In this document: piece after piece, positions 2,991-30,085 of the stretch | How positions within the stretch are numbered: the stretch's first letter is position 1 | Layout of the letters: each line of letters begins with the position of its first letter | IMG/VR virus record: IMGVR_UViG_3300023178_000046 | Coordinates: 1-64,000 of that record | Reading direction: 5' to 3' (one strand) | From: a virus | DNA length: 64,000 nucleotides | Made by a program: the position numbers and the translations under genes | The notes under the pieces: generated by a model | Told to the model about the DNA's origin: nothing | The model's database searches: none | What the model saw: the letters and a program-made list of their open reading frames with translations, nothing else

Positions 2991-5285
2991 TTACTTTATA
3001 ATTTCGCTGTTCAGGCCTGTATTATCGTACTTTGCAAAGTTAACGTTTATTTTATTATACTTTTTCTCAGGCTTATTTATAAATCTTTGATTTGCCATTA
3101 TGGCTAGACCAGAGCTAACTGTGGCGTCAAACTTGGTTCTATTAAATATGTTGTAGTTGGACCAATCCTTCAATGTTCTCATAAAATACATCTTTCCCAT
3201 AGCCCCTACATCTCTGTAGACACCTATATTGTCTACTCCTACATTCTTCTCTATGTAAGCTTCAATTGCTTCAGCGTGAATAGATATCACCGCTTGTGAT
3301 GAAGGAACTCCACCAAGCTCTCTTTCAGACTTAGAAAGATCGTGTTTTAGCTTGTCTGGTCTGTTCATAGAGAAAGCTCTATAGCCTCTGTTCTTCATAT
3401 AGTAAAGCAACCTTGGCTTATTATTCTCAACTAATATAGGCATTCCATAAAAATGCATTGCCATCAAAACATCCTCATAAAACAACTCTGCCGTTTGTGG
3501 TCTTGCTATGTATTCCAGGAAAAACAGTTCAGATGGAGCGTTGTCAAAATTAACCTTTGTAAGCCCATGTAAAGCACCTTTTGAACCTGACCCACCAACA
3601 ACTCCAGATATATCATAAGAGTCACAACCAAAGCTTCCTATGTGGTCGTTAAGAGGGAAAAACTTTCCTCCGTCTTTTCTTACATTATTCCTCAGTTCTT
3701 TTGGTGGTAACCAAGTTACATAGAACCTGCCTTTTCTATTAGGCATCCAGACAACTTGTGAATCTCTTTTACCGTCCATCCAATGAAAGTCTCCTCTTTG
3801 AACAATAGACTCGATACCTGTAGTGTCGTTGTAATCTATCTGTTCGTATATCTTTGTTAGATTAAAAAGGCTGTTTTTAGACTCATCTCTAAATGCATGG
3901 TTCTCTGACCTCGGAAACTGTCTGTAAAATTCATTTAATGCGTCTGCATCGTTTTTTAAAGAATAAACTTCATTTTCCCAATAATCCAATACTCCTTGAT
4001 CGATGTAATCACCATATGTTGTTAGCGTTTCCTCTTTTGGAGTTCTAAACACAGGCTGTCCATACATATCTATAAAACCTTCCATATTCCATTCCATTGG
4101 AATAAAAAGATGATATAGTCCGCTTTTAGTCTGTCCATTGGAGTTTCTTTCCTGTGGATTGCTATCGTAGAATAGTTTTTTGAAGTTGTCTCCTCCTTTA
4201 TCTAAAGCGTTTGATGTTGATCCCATCATACACTTTCCTATAATCCTACGACCTAATCTTAGCGTAGTTTTAGTGACACGCCAGTTGTTGAGGATATTAT
4301 CTGGACGTTCCCATTTTCCAGATTCATCATGCACAAGGAGTCGTAGCTTTTCCCCATCGTAGGAGTTATCTCCAGTGTTTTTCCAGTCAATAGTTGTGTC
4401 GAGCCCTGTAAGATTGTCTGTGTCTTCTGTATTTTCGATATTCTTTCTTGTGAGCTTTGATGCTGGTACTCTGTAGGCAAGCTCTGTTTTTGGTCTATCC
4501 ATACCATCTTGAATTGGTCTGAAGAAGAATGGATAGTTTGTTGAGATTGGGACAACCTTGTCGGTGAACATTTTTTTGGCATCTGCACCAGTCTTGGATA
4601 AAATACCGAACCTAGCATCTGAGGTGATTGTAGCTTGGTTGACTGTTTCTGACGATGACATAAAGCTAAATCCACTCCGTCTATTTTTGAGGTAGCACAT
4701 TCCATAACATCTGTCGTCTGCTTTGCACGCTTCCCAATAAATAAAAAAGATTCTGTTTGATTCTCTGTACTCTGGCTTTCCAACATCAATCTTTGTCCAT
4801 TGGAGGTACATGTAGTGAGACCCAGTAATATAAGTAGGATTACCATTATTTTTAAACCAGAAACCAGAATCTCTTCTTTCAAACTCATCTTCAATGTATG
4901 GGATCCATGACTCTTTGAATGAAGACGACATGCCATTCCACTGGAATATGGTCTTGATCTTATTGAGCTCTTTTGGGTATTCAAACTCCTCCCAGAACTG
5001 CTCCTCTTTTTTCTTGCTGCGCTCATGTATTTTTTTTGGCTGCAAAGGTAAGGCTATTTTCAACCCACTTATATTGACTACATCGCCAATTTGTCCTGTT
5101 TTAGATATAACCACAACATCATGGTCTTTGTTGTAGCCATAATCCCAAGCTTTATTTTTATTTAGTTTGTCTATCACTTTTGAATCAATGTGATAAACAA
5201 GCCTCATAAGCTCAAGACTTTCTACCTCTCGACTCAGCGAAGCCTTGGAAAGACTCTTCTTTTTTGGTTTCTTTAGATCCTCCAT
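2991..5285 (-). CDS. terL: Terminase large subunit (packaging ATPase/nuclease)
   Basis: This 764-residue protein is longer than most TerL proteins. Residues about 200-208 (KNRRSGFSF) fit the Arg-rich deviant Walker A region found in TerL of Bacteroidota podoviruses. LRLLVHDE at about 314-321 is a good Walker B with the catalytic DE pair. A conserved Asp near residue 565 (in SFGCDSYD) fits the first metal ligand of the RNase H-like nuclease. It would drive DNA into the prohead through the adjacent portal. Its start overlaps the small-terminase candidate by 74 nt, so the two are translationally linked. Confidence 0.88.
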   Translation of the reverse strand: MEDLKKPKKKSLSKASLSREVESLELMRLVYHIDSKVIDKLNKNKAWDYGYNKDHDVVVISKTGQIGDVVNISGLKIALPLQPKKIHERSKKKEEQFWEEFEYPKELNKIKTIFQWNGMSSSFKESWIPYIEDEFERRDSGFWFKNNGNPTYITGSHYMYLQWTKIDVGKPEYRESNRIFFIYWEACKADDRCYGMCYLKNRRSGFSFMSSSETVNQATITSDARFGILSKTGADAKKMFTDKVVPISTNYPFFFRPIQDGMDRPKTELAYRVPASKLTRKNIENTEDTDNLTGLDTTIDWKNTGDNSYDGEKLRLLVHDESGKWERPDNILNNWRVTKTTLRLGRRIIGKCMMGSTSNALDKGGDNFKKLFYDSNPQERNSNGQTKSGLYHLFIPMEWNMEGFIDMYGQPVFRTPKEETLTTYGDYIDQGVLDYWENEVYSLKNDADALNEFYRQFPRSENHAFRDESKNSLFNLTKIYEQIDYNDTTGIESIVQRGDFHWMDGKRDSQVVWMPNRKGRFYVTWLPPKELRNNVRKDGGKFFPLNDHIGSFGCDSYDISGVVGGSGSKGALHGLTKVNFDNAPSELFFLEYIARPQTAELFYEDVLMAMHFYGMPILVENNKPRLLYYMKNRGYRAFSMNRPDKLKHDLSKSERELGGVPSSQAVISIHAEAIEAYIEKNVGVDNIGVYRDVGAMGKMYFMRTLKDWSNYNIFNRTKFDATVSSGLAIMANQRFINKPEKKYNKINVNFAKYDNTGLNSEIIK

Positions 5286-27335: not shown

Positions 27336-27410
27336 TATTAAATCATTTAGATTTTATTATTGTTTTCTTGGACAGCCAGGTATGAAGATATAGTAATACC
27401 TGGTTTTTTT
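27336..27410 (+). ncRNA. Candidate very short RNA between promoter-like site and terminator
   Basis: No coding frame lies between the box at 27321 and the terminator ending at 27410, so a transcript would be about 75 nt and mostly the terminator hairpin. The start (about 27336) is inferred from the box. Confidence 0.35.
27376..27410 (+). terminator. Strong rho-independent terminator
   Basis: A perfect 8-bp stem (CCAGGTAT with ATACCTGG), a 12-nt loop and seven T directly after it. It faces right, with no gene upstream on that strand for this transcript, so it either ends a short RNA or blocks transcription that enters from the left. Confidence 0.8.
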
Positions 27411-28150: not shown

Positions 28151-28516
28151 ATGGAAAATGTAGTATTTTACGCAAAAATGTTGAAAGGCAGAGACGCCAT
28201 AGTTGGTAAGGCTGTCGTATTCGAGCAGATCAGTAACGATAAAAAGTTAACTGAAATTAATCTAATCAAAGCTTACTTTCCACTATCACAACTTCAGGTG
28301 GATGTAATCAAAAAAGATTACAATAAAGACTATGCACTTGTAGAGTGTAGAGTTCCAGTATGGTTGTGGGATGCAAAAGTTGAAGCCGAGAGAGGTTTCC
28401 AATCTAAACTGTCTGCGTCATTTACACAGTTGACGATGTTGACTGCAGATGACAATCCGACACTTGAGGCGGAAGCAGAAAAAGTTAGAGATGTAGTGAA
28501 TGAGGGGCTGGAATAG
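28151..28516 (+). CDS. Early hypothetical protein, 121 aa
   Basis: It is a soluble alpha/beta protein with no recognised domain. It is the first gene rightwards, follows a host-type promoter, and ends inside a strong terminator that overlaps its stop codon. It is therefore probably made early and in large amounts as a single-gene transcript. Such genes often encode host-takeover or DNA-binding proteins. That is only inference. Confidence 0.7.
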   Translation: MENVVFYAKMLKGRDAIVGKAVVFEQISNDKKLTEINLIKAYFPLSQLQVDVIKKDYNKDYALVECRVPVWLWDAKVEAERGFQSKLSASFTQLTMLTADDNPTLEAEAEKVRDVVNEGLE

Positions 28517-28527
28517 CCCCTTTTTTT
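28504..28527 (+). terminator. Rho-independent terminator overlapping stop codon
   Basis: A perfect GC-rich 6-bp stem GGGGCT with AGCCCC, loop GGAAT, then seven T. The stop codon TAG (28514-28516) is at the loop edge of the right arm. Confidence 0.9.
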
Positions 28528-28669
28528 AGTTATTAATGATGTGTCAGTATATAATCTTTTGTTTAGCATATTATCACTATCACTTTTACAAGGATAGTAT
28601 CAGTACAAAAAGCACAGCTTTACTGACACATTTTCCAACGGAGAGTTTCAGTGCTTCTCTCCTTTTTTT
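28528..28669 (+). ncRNA. Candidate structured small RNA between two terminators
   Basis: About 140 nt without a reading frame, bounded by one terminator on the left and ending in another. TGTGTCAGTA (28540-28549) pairs perfectly with TACTGACACA (28621-28630), closing a 71-nt domain. That domain has an internal hairpin: ACTATC (28576-28581) with GATAGT (28593-28598). The 3' end is the GGAGAG/CTCTCC terminator. The layout is that of an independent small RNA. No clear promoter was found, so processing from read-through is possible. Confidence 0.55.
28640..28669 (+). terminator. Rho-independent terminator
   Basis: A 6-bp stem GGAGAG with CTCTCC, an 11-nt loop and seven T. It forms the 3' end of the structured RNA candidate. 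Confidence 0.8.
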
Positions 28670-28676
28670 ACAGTAT

Positions 28677-28693
28677 ACAAGGATAATCCTTGT
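28677..28693. promoter_or_regulatory. 17-bp palindrome, possible operator
   Basis: ACAAGGAT-A-ATCCTTGT is a perfect palindrome with one central base, 29 nt before the next gene. The half-site ACAAGGAT also occurs at 28588-28595. It is consistent with a dimeric repressor site controlling the early operon. A small attenuator hairpin is the alternative. Confidence 0.5.
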
Positions 28694-28721
28694 TGTTTAG
28701 TTTAATTTAATTCTATTTATT

Positions 28722-29099
28722 ATGTTACGTAAATTTACGAACGACCAATTGTATCCATTGTTTAACTATTACACAAACAATGGTAAGAGTATCAGTAAGA
28801 CAGCTAAGAAATTCAAAATTTCTTACAATGATGCTTATTATCGTATCAGAGAATACGAAAGACGTTTAAACAAAGGTGAAGACCGTGTTGCTCAAGACAC
28901 AAATGGCAACAAGATTCGTGTTGCAGGTCTTGCTCCTTTCATGATTCGTTTCAACTCTGTTGATGACGCATGGGAAAAAATGCGCAAAGAGTTTACACAC
29001 GATCAACTCACTATCATAACCAAGTTTTACAATACTGTTATTTATCAAGCAGATTGTATTGGGACAGATAAAGTTAATGTAATCACAGAAAACGTCTAG
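28722..29099 (+). CDS. Hypothetical protein with possible HTH, 125 aa
   Basis: Residues about 8-48 (LYPLFNYYTNNGKSISKTAKKFKISYNDAYYRIREYERRL) look like a resolvase-type helix-turn-helix: helix, SKTAKKF turn, and a recognition helix. The remainder is basic and helical. It is followed 2 nt later by the peptidase gene. A DNA-binding regulator of early genes is possible; the palindrome upstream could be its target. Confidence 0.6.
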   Translation: MLRKFTNDQLYPLFNYYTNNGKSISKTAKKFKISYNDAYYRIREYERRLNKGEDRVAQDTNGNKIRVAGLAPFMIRFNSVDDAWEKMRKEFTHDQLTIITKFYNTVIYQADCIGTDKVNVITENV

Positions 29100-29101
29100 T
29101 T

Positions 29102-30085
29102 ATGAATAGTAGAAAGTTTGTAGATAATCTAAAAAAACTTGTTACTATTCAGTCCGAGTCATACAACACTAGAGACATGGCTCGTTATATCGTTGGTGTT
29201 GTACAGTCCATTGGTGGCTGTACAATTACCAATGATAAATATGGTAACATATACGTGACCAAGGGTAATGCTGATAAGTATGATTCTATGGTATGTCATA
29301 TTGATACAGTGCATAGTATTGTTAAAGCTAAGATTCATGCAATCAACATTGATGGTAACATAGTTGCTTTTAACGGCAAAACTATGAAACAACATGGTAC
29401 AGGTGGTGACGACAAGGTTGGTATACACATTACATTAGAACTCCTAAAAAGACGTAGTAATTTCAAAGCTGTATTCTTTTTAGATGAAGAAGTAGGTTGT
29501 GTTGGTTCAGCCAAAGCTGACTTCAAATTCTTTAACGACTGTAGATTTGTACTGGAATGTGATAGACGTGGCTCAAACGATTTCGTAGATAGTATATCTG
29601 GTACTCAATTGTATAGCAAAGAATTTTCAAAAGATATACAAAAAGTATTGCAGAAATACAATAGAAAAGAAGTTTCTGGTGGTATGACTGATGTAGTAGA
29701 GATTGCTTATTCAACAAACAAGTGTGTAGCTAATATGTCTTGTGGATATTACAATCCACACACTGATACAGAATATATCAATATTGAAGATGTAATTGAC
29801 ACTTTCAACTTTTGCAATGATTTATACGATATAAACAAGAAAATGTATTCATATGATGTTGCACGAGTAAATCAATGGGCAAATTATAGATGGGATTACG
29901 ATCCATACTATGGAACAAATGATGCATTCGATCATTATGATTTATTAGATGATAACGATGCTGATAAGAAAATCAAAGAGATTTGTGGACCTGGTTGTAT
30001 GTTACATGATAATTATTGTACAACATGCATGATGTATACAGAAGAACTAACAGAATTTTTTGAAGATGAGACTACCATTGACTGA
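29102..30085 (+). CDS. M20-type zinc metallopeptidase (peptidase T/carboxypeptidase-like)
   Basis: This 327-aa protein holds the whole M20 ligand set: H66-x-D68 in CHIDTV, D103/D104 in GGDDKVG, E129-E130 in FLDEEVG, D154 in ECDRRG, and H220 in NPHTDTEY. The lid domain of bacterial enzymes seems reduced. It is followed by a C-terminal ~70-residue tail with many Tyr/Asp and a small Cys cluster (GPGCMLHDNYCTTCM) that could bind zinc. M20 enzymes release amino acids from peptides. In a phage it may recycle host peptides or trim a specific target. It overlaps the next gene by 20 nt. Confidence 0.8.
   Translation: MNSRKFVDNLKKLVTIQSESYNTRDMARYIVGVVQSIGGCTITNDKYGNIYVTKGNADKYDSMVCHIDTVHSIVKAKIHAINIDGNIVAFNGKTMKQHGTGGDDKVGIHITLELLKRRSNFKAVFFLDEEVGCVGSAKADFKFFNDCRFVLECDRRGSNDFVDSISGTQLYSKEFSKDIQKVLQKYNRKEVSGGMTDVVEIAYSTNKCVANMSCGYYNPHTDTEYINIEDVIDTFNFCNDLYDINKKMYSYDVARVNQWANYRWDYDPYYGTNDAFDHYDLLDDNDADKKIKEICGPGCMLHDNYCTTCMMYTEELTEFFEDETTID

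Follow-up and report, generated by a model that had tools for sequence, protein, structure and literature searches.

The 205-nt gap between two plus-strand genes of an uncultured virus raises the question of whether it encodes an RNA, and of what such an RNA might do for the genes that follow it. The window, which is the whole stretch analyzed, covers 64,000 of the 64,835 bases in the record of this virus, and the gap separates a 121-aa gene (28151-28516, plus strand) from a 125-aa gene (28722-29099, plus strand). The initial annotation had proposed a structured small RNA between two terminators at 28528-28669. Because distant relatives keep its design in the corresponding position, the short non-coding element in the gap probably represents a genuine element of RNA control. 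The favored reading, held with slightly less than even confidence, is that the gap is a cis-acting leader or terminator module that gates the downstream gene.

The upstream gene belongs to a small-protein family that serves as the anchor of the locus in the relatives and has a predicted structure of five beta strands plus a helix. The window member is linked to this family by a weaker leave-one-out HMM E value of 0.002, and synteny backs its membership. The family of the downstream 125-aa protein is solid (leave-one-out HMM E value of 1e-13), and this product starts with an N-terminal helix-turn-helix-like domain (residues 7-50, with pLDDT ~90 over residues 11-50). The structure models of the neighboring genes gave no significant match in the PDB. 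Over ~72% of its length, a peptidase gene at 29102 shares 43-45% identity with its counterparts in the Pervagoviridae members phi38:1 and Calle_1, which are Cellulophaga phages, and the window phage is therefore distantly related to known phages of Bacteroidetes. ARAGORN finds no tRNA or tmRNA in the window.

The sequence at 28528-28669 folds at a computed -32.4 kcal/mol versus -19.4 +/- 3.2 in shuffles (z -4.06), and none of 200 shuffles folds as well. The preceding terminator of the initial annotation was recovered by a terminator scanner on the plus strand at 28502-28527, where AGGGGCT and AGCCCCT form a stem (28502-28522) with a T7 tract (28521-28527); this terminator overlaps the end of the upstream gene. 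Another terminator-like hairpin, CCAGGTAT...ATACCTGG followed by T7, is located at ~27360-27410 in a divergent intergenic region. The closing stem P1, described earlier as 28540-28549 paired with 28621-28630, is present and extends to 11 Watson-Crick pairs (28539-28549 with 28621-28631), or 12 including one G-U pair. When 28528-28669 is dinucleotide-shuffled, 0.35% of the shuffles contain a Watson-Crick stem of at least this length. The internal hairpin P2 (28576-28598) has exactly the arms first reported, 28576-28581 and 28593-28598. Two more hairpins lie on the plus strand, arranged as TCAGTA-CAAAAAGCACAGCTT-TACTGA (H1, 28600-28626, 15-nt loop), 13 nt, and GGAGAG-TTTCAGTGCTT-CTCTCC (H2, 28640-28662, 11-nt loop). 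H1 is an alternative to P1, with 28621-28626 common to both. A T7 tract at 28663-28669 gives H2 a terminator-like form, and the combination (28640-28669) is absent from the scanner list because the 11-nt loop exceeds the scanner's 8-nt loop limit. The earlier view that the region has no coding frame is nearly right, except that one mechanical 54-aa ORF (28536-28700) spans the RNA element. Among 4227 Rfam families, none matches the window at the gathering threshold, and only weak sub-threshold matches are returned at E values up to 10.

Beyond these helices, the H2 loop segment GTGCTT (28651-28656) is complementary to AAGCAC (28610-28615) in the H1/P1 loop just upstream, which makes 28600-28662 a kissing-hairpin pair. 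The element TACTGA (28621-28626), contained in the 3' arm of P1, has three possible partners: TCAGTA at 28544-28549, TCAGTA at 28600-28605 and, with one G-U pair, TCAGTG at 28648-28653 in the H2 loop. This choice of partners suggests a switch, and 5000 shuffles yield no case of TACTGA with three TCAGTR partners. Of the alternatives P1 and H1, P1 has the higher computed stability, and AAGCAC stays looped in both, free for H2. No classical antiterminator is visible, because P1 and H2 can coexist.

Relatives of the locus were recovered only via the peptidase gene. A DNA similarity search of the gap against 50,697 phage records gave no match, protein searches of viral contigs with either flanking gene alone did not find relatives, and when 395 genomes from a single phylum were searched for the peptidase, only the already known genome was returned. 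The order of 121-aa family gene, 125-aa family gene and peptidase gene is retained in relatives L002, L015 and L017, and a member of the 121-aa family is located upstream of the peptidase in L036, L029, L026, L095 and L096. The relatives found are too distant for comparison of the long closing stem P1, and the closest near-identical contig begins at ~29980, past the gap. The gaps aligned too poorly in MAFFT to support a covariance model. When all viral contigs were searched with the closing stem as a pattern, two matches emerged, both inside coding sequence and attributed to chance. Rfam searches of the relatives yielded tRNA matches only, plus one sub-threshold match to DUF805b outside the slot that corresponds to the gap.

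The two-hairpin design is found beside the 121-aa gene family in L002 (twice), L015, L017 and L036, where it directly follows the gene, and in a looser form in L029 (AAAAGCA/TGCTTTT). In L002, two hairpins with the complementary loops GTCTCG and CGAGAC occupy the gap between the same two genes, and a second pair with AACTAG and CTAGTT is present upstream of the first gene. L015 and L017 carry a pair before the same gene as this second L002 pair, with loops that are changed and complementarity that is kept (AACTT/AAGTT in L015, AACCTC/GGGGTT in L017 and AACTAGT/GCTAGTT in L002). H1, H2 and the loop-loop helix all differ in sequence across the relatives with pairing retained, and the G-U pairs in L017 (loop-loop helix) and L036 (H1) fit a plus-strand RNA. 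When six elements are aligned by hand, 95 of 96 cells pair and 15 of the 16 positions show 2-4 pair types, a count that overstates covariation because the elements were partly chosen by complementarity. The predicted loop-loop pairing, overlooked by the initial annotation, is the better-conserved feature and is common to the relatives. The kissing helix is located at the middle of the second loop (approximately positions 3-9) in one subtype, formed by L002, L015 and L017, and at the 3' end of the second loop (TTTC...CTT) in another, formed by the window and L036. Because of these two registers, the six elements may not be one homologous family. Kissing-like matches in L082 and L067 were rejected, as they are located in a different, repeat-rich region beside other genes.

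Scan statistics are a fairer measure than the pair count, given that some elements were found by their complementarity. A strict scan with a fixed geometry, including an 11-nt second loop, was applied to 769 kb of the window and relatives and gave seven plus-strand matches versus 0-3 in shuffles. Four of the seven are in gaps flanking the 121-aa gene family (window 28600-28662, L002 3165-3228, L002 3531-3589 and L036 4118-4181), and the chance of such a pair per gap is ~0.0003-0.002 for each of the window, L017 and L036. In four relative contigs (G001, G003 and G004 scanned whole, G005 nearly whole), no equivalent intergenic pair occurs elsewhere, and the pair is therefore specific to this locus. 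These results bear on the possibility that the gap contains only chance pairings in ordinary terminators and AT-rich spacer, with its likeness to the relatives produced by the search. Such an explanation could draw on the ~3 loosely defined kissing hairpins expected by chance per 64 kb strand, on P1 being beyond comparison with close relatives, and on the several relatives that have no such structure. It is nevertheless judged improbable in view of the low per-gap probability at independent loci sharing the same genomic position, and of the strong fold.

If the gap is a cis-acting module, its plus strand would encode a structured RNA that acts on what follows. The core would consist of H1, or its longer alternative P1, together with H2, and pairing of the loops AAGCAC and GTGCTT would produce a compact kissing structure. 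With the U7 tract that follows H2 in this phage, the folded core may end transcription or gate read-through at a point immediately ahead of the 28722 helix-turn-helix gene and those that follow. Given the competing partners of TACTGA, the RNA could in principle alternate between two folds, one with the long P1 and one a compact combination of H1 and H2. Transcription of the gap, kissing of the loops in the cell and control of the downstream gene are all features that we infer from the DNA sequence. From the gap to 40,837, the scanner reports few terminator-like sites on the plus strand; together with the terminator-like hairpin ending the first gene, this suggests that transcription of the downstream genes probably begins anew within or close to the gap. 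The position of the core before a start codon or tRNA gene in the relatives suggests a cis role at least as much as a small RNA: the pair ends 14-17 nt before the ATG in L002 (twice), L015 and L017. Several results count against the leader reading. In the window, the distance from the pair to the start codon is 59 nt instead of 14-17 nt. With only five A/U-rich pairs, the kissing helix of L015 does not pass the strict test, the L095 gap contains no such pair with the same gene family present, and L015 and L017 have no pair between the two genes that flank the window element. A broader proposal, considered rather doubtful, is that the elements make up a novel family of RNA switches built on kissing hairpins in Bacteroidetes phages, in which the choice of partner by TACTGA would set read-through into the downstream operon and the core would be reused before start codons and tRNA-Glu.

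The main rival to the leader module is a free small RNA of ~105-140 nt that would act in trans and be transcribed from a dedicated promoter located between the two terminators. Terminator-like hairpins do bound the element on both sides, the z value of -4.06 for 28528-28669 is consistent with such an RNA, and the palindrome farther downstream hints at a separate control region for the 28722 operon. No promoter is recognized above background in the gap, however, where a lone TATAAT occurs at 28550-28555. Promoters of Bacteroidetes do not normally conform to TATAAT, which counts against a small-RNA promoter at 28550; a transcript using it would start near 28562 and lack the 5' arm of P1, leaving P2, H1 and H2. 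The U-tract on which the proposed 3' terminator depends is also not kept in the relatives, being absent after H2 in L002 3531-3589 and L036 and reduced to weak T runs in L002 3165-3228, L015 and L017. Moreover, the core in the relatives stands directly before a start codon or tRNA rather than as a separate unit. The small-RNA explanation is thus possible but unlikely. Of the initial proposal, a structured non-coding RNA is upheld by folding energy and conserved architecture, whereas a free-standing RNA with its own terminator stays hypothetical, the hairpin and T7 being present with a U-tract that is particular to this phage.

The palindrome is the 17-nt ACAAGGATAATCCTTGT (28677-28693, plus strand), and its position before 28722, together with the helix-turn-helix-like start of the product, suggests a candidate operator of the downstream gene. 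A half-site of this palindrome, ACAAGGAT, is present at 28588-28595 (plus strand), as had been annotated, but it is weak evidence for RNA function. The window contains six copies, compared with an expectation of 3.2, and a count this high is attained in 13 of 100 shuffles; the link to the palindrome is weak because of this mild over-representation. Separately, GGATAATCC is found in a small hairpin with a UAA loop at 28681-28689 of the window and at 3975-3983 of L025, in the non-coding slot in both cases, and has five occurrences in all sequence scanned.

The candidate module resembles several known systems in part. In the purine riboswitch, two hairpins are joined loop to loop (L2-L3) in a kissing-loop core. 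The gap element shares with such cores the two hairpins, the loop-loop pairing and a leader position before a gene, but it has no recognized three-way junction core or ligand pocket and no Rfam match, and in the phage elements the H2 loop is 11 nt long and a 12-22 nt linker connects the two hairpins. It is like intrinsic terminators and attenuators in having a G+C-containing hairpin followed by T7, and differs in that the 11-nt loop of H2 can pair upstream and in that relatives with the hairpin pair have a weak U-tract or none. To our knowledge, structured RNAs of Bacteroidetes-infecting phages are little described. Phage-encoded small RNAs (PMC12197685) are similar to the candidate RNA of the window in being short and non-coding with a terminator-like 3' end. 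A term search of that review gave no mention of Bacteroidetes hosts (PMC12197685). The window RNA falls outside all current Rfam families, and, should the loop-loop core prove real and serve ahead of several types of gene in related phages, it would offer a compact, testable module of RNA control from which an RNA family could be built.

The slot occupied by the gap also accommodates a tRNA gene. A tRNA-Glu(TTC) is located upstream of the peptidase in L020, L021, L025, L026, L029, L036 and L096, directly after the 121-aa family gene in the relatives checked, and is absent from the slot in the window, L002, L015 and L017. Structured 5' leaders of tRNA transcripts are another point of likeness, as the kissing pair of L036 and L029 ends ~4 nt before tRNA-Glu, with the difference that the window phage has no tRNA in the slot. 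In L026 (4123-4211) and L096 (4243-4310), stems of 11-12 bp close domains that end 3-5 nt before tRNA-Glu (P ~0.003 or less). These stems are reminiscent of P1 in the window, and the closed domains are possible released leader RNAs. The window element could accordingly be imagined as a relic or co-opted form of a structured tRNA-Glu leader in which the tRNA was lost and a terminator took its place; the tRNA-Glu of the seven relatives, the spacing in L036 and L029, the closing stems of L026 and L096 and the lack of a tRNA in the window are all in line with this. Kissing hairpins nevertheless occur without a tRNA in L002, L015 and L017, L020 and L021 carry the tRNA without a structured leader, and no tRNA remnant is recognized in the window, so that a relic of this kind seems improbable. 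The slot is an example of a tRNA gene and structured RNAs swapping at one position among related phages.

Other relatives show further variation upstream of the peptidase. ARAGORN reports a tmRNA at 3327-3686 in both L004 and L005 (phi38:1 and Calle_1), a site annotated as tmRNA in Calle_1 and as a minus-strand hypothetical protein in phi38:1. A pre-tRNA match in L005 was rejected as part of one extended hairpin with no kissing pair. In L009, the peptidase is immediately preceded by a 214-nt non-coding gap (2781-2994) whose fold is moderately stable (z -1.7), and no similar gap is present at this position in L018, L022 or L028. The L029 gap before tRNA-Glu (1060-1170) contains short G+C-rich direct repeats that are CACGGAATCGTTGCGGC-like.
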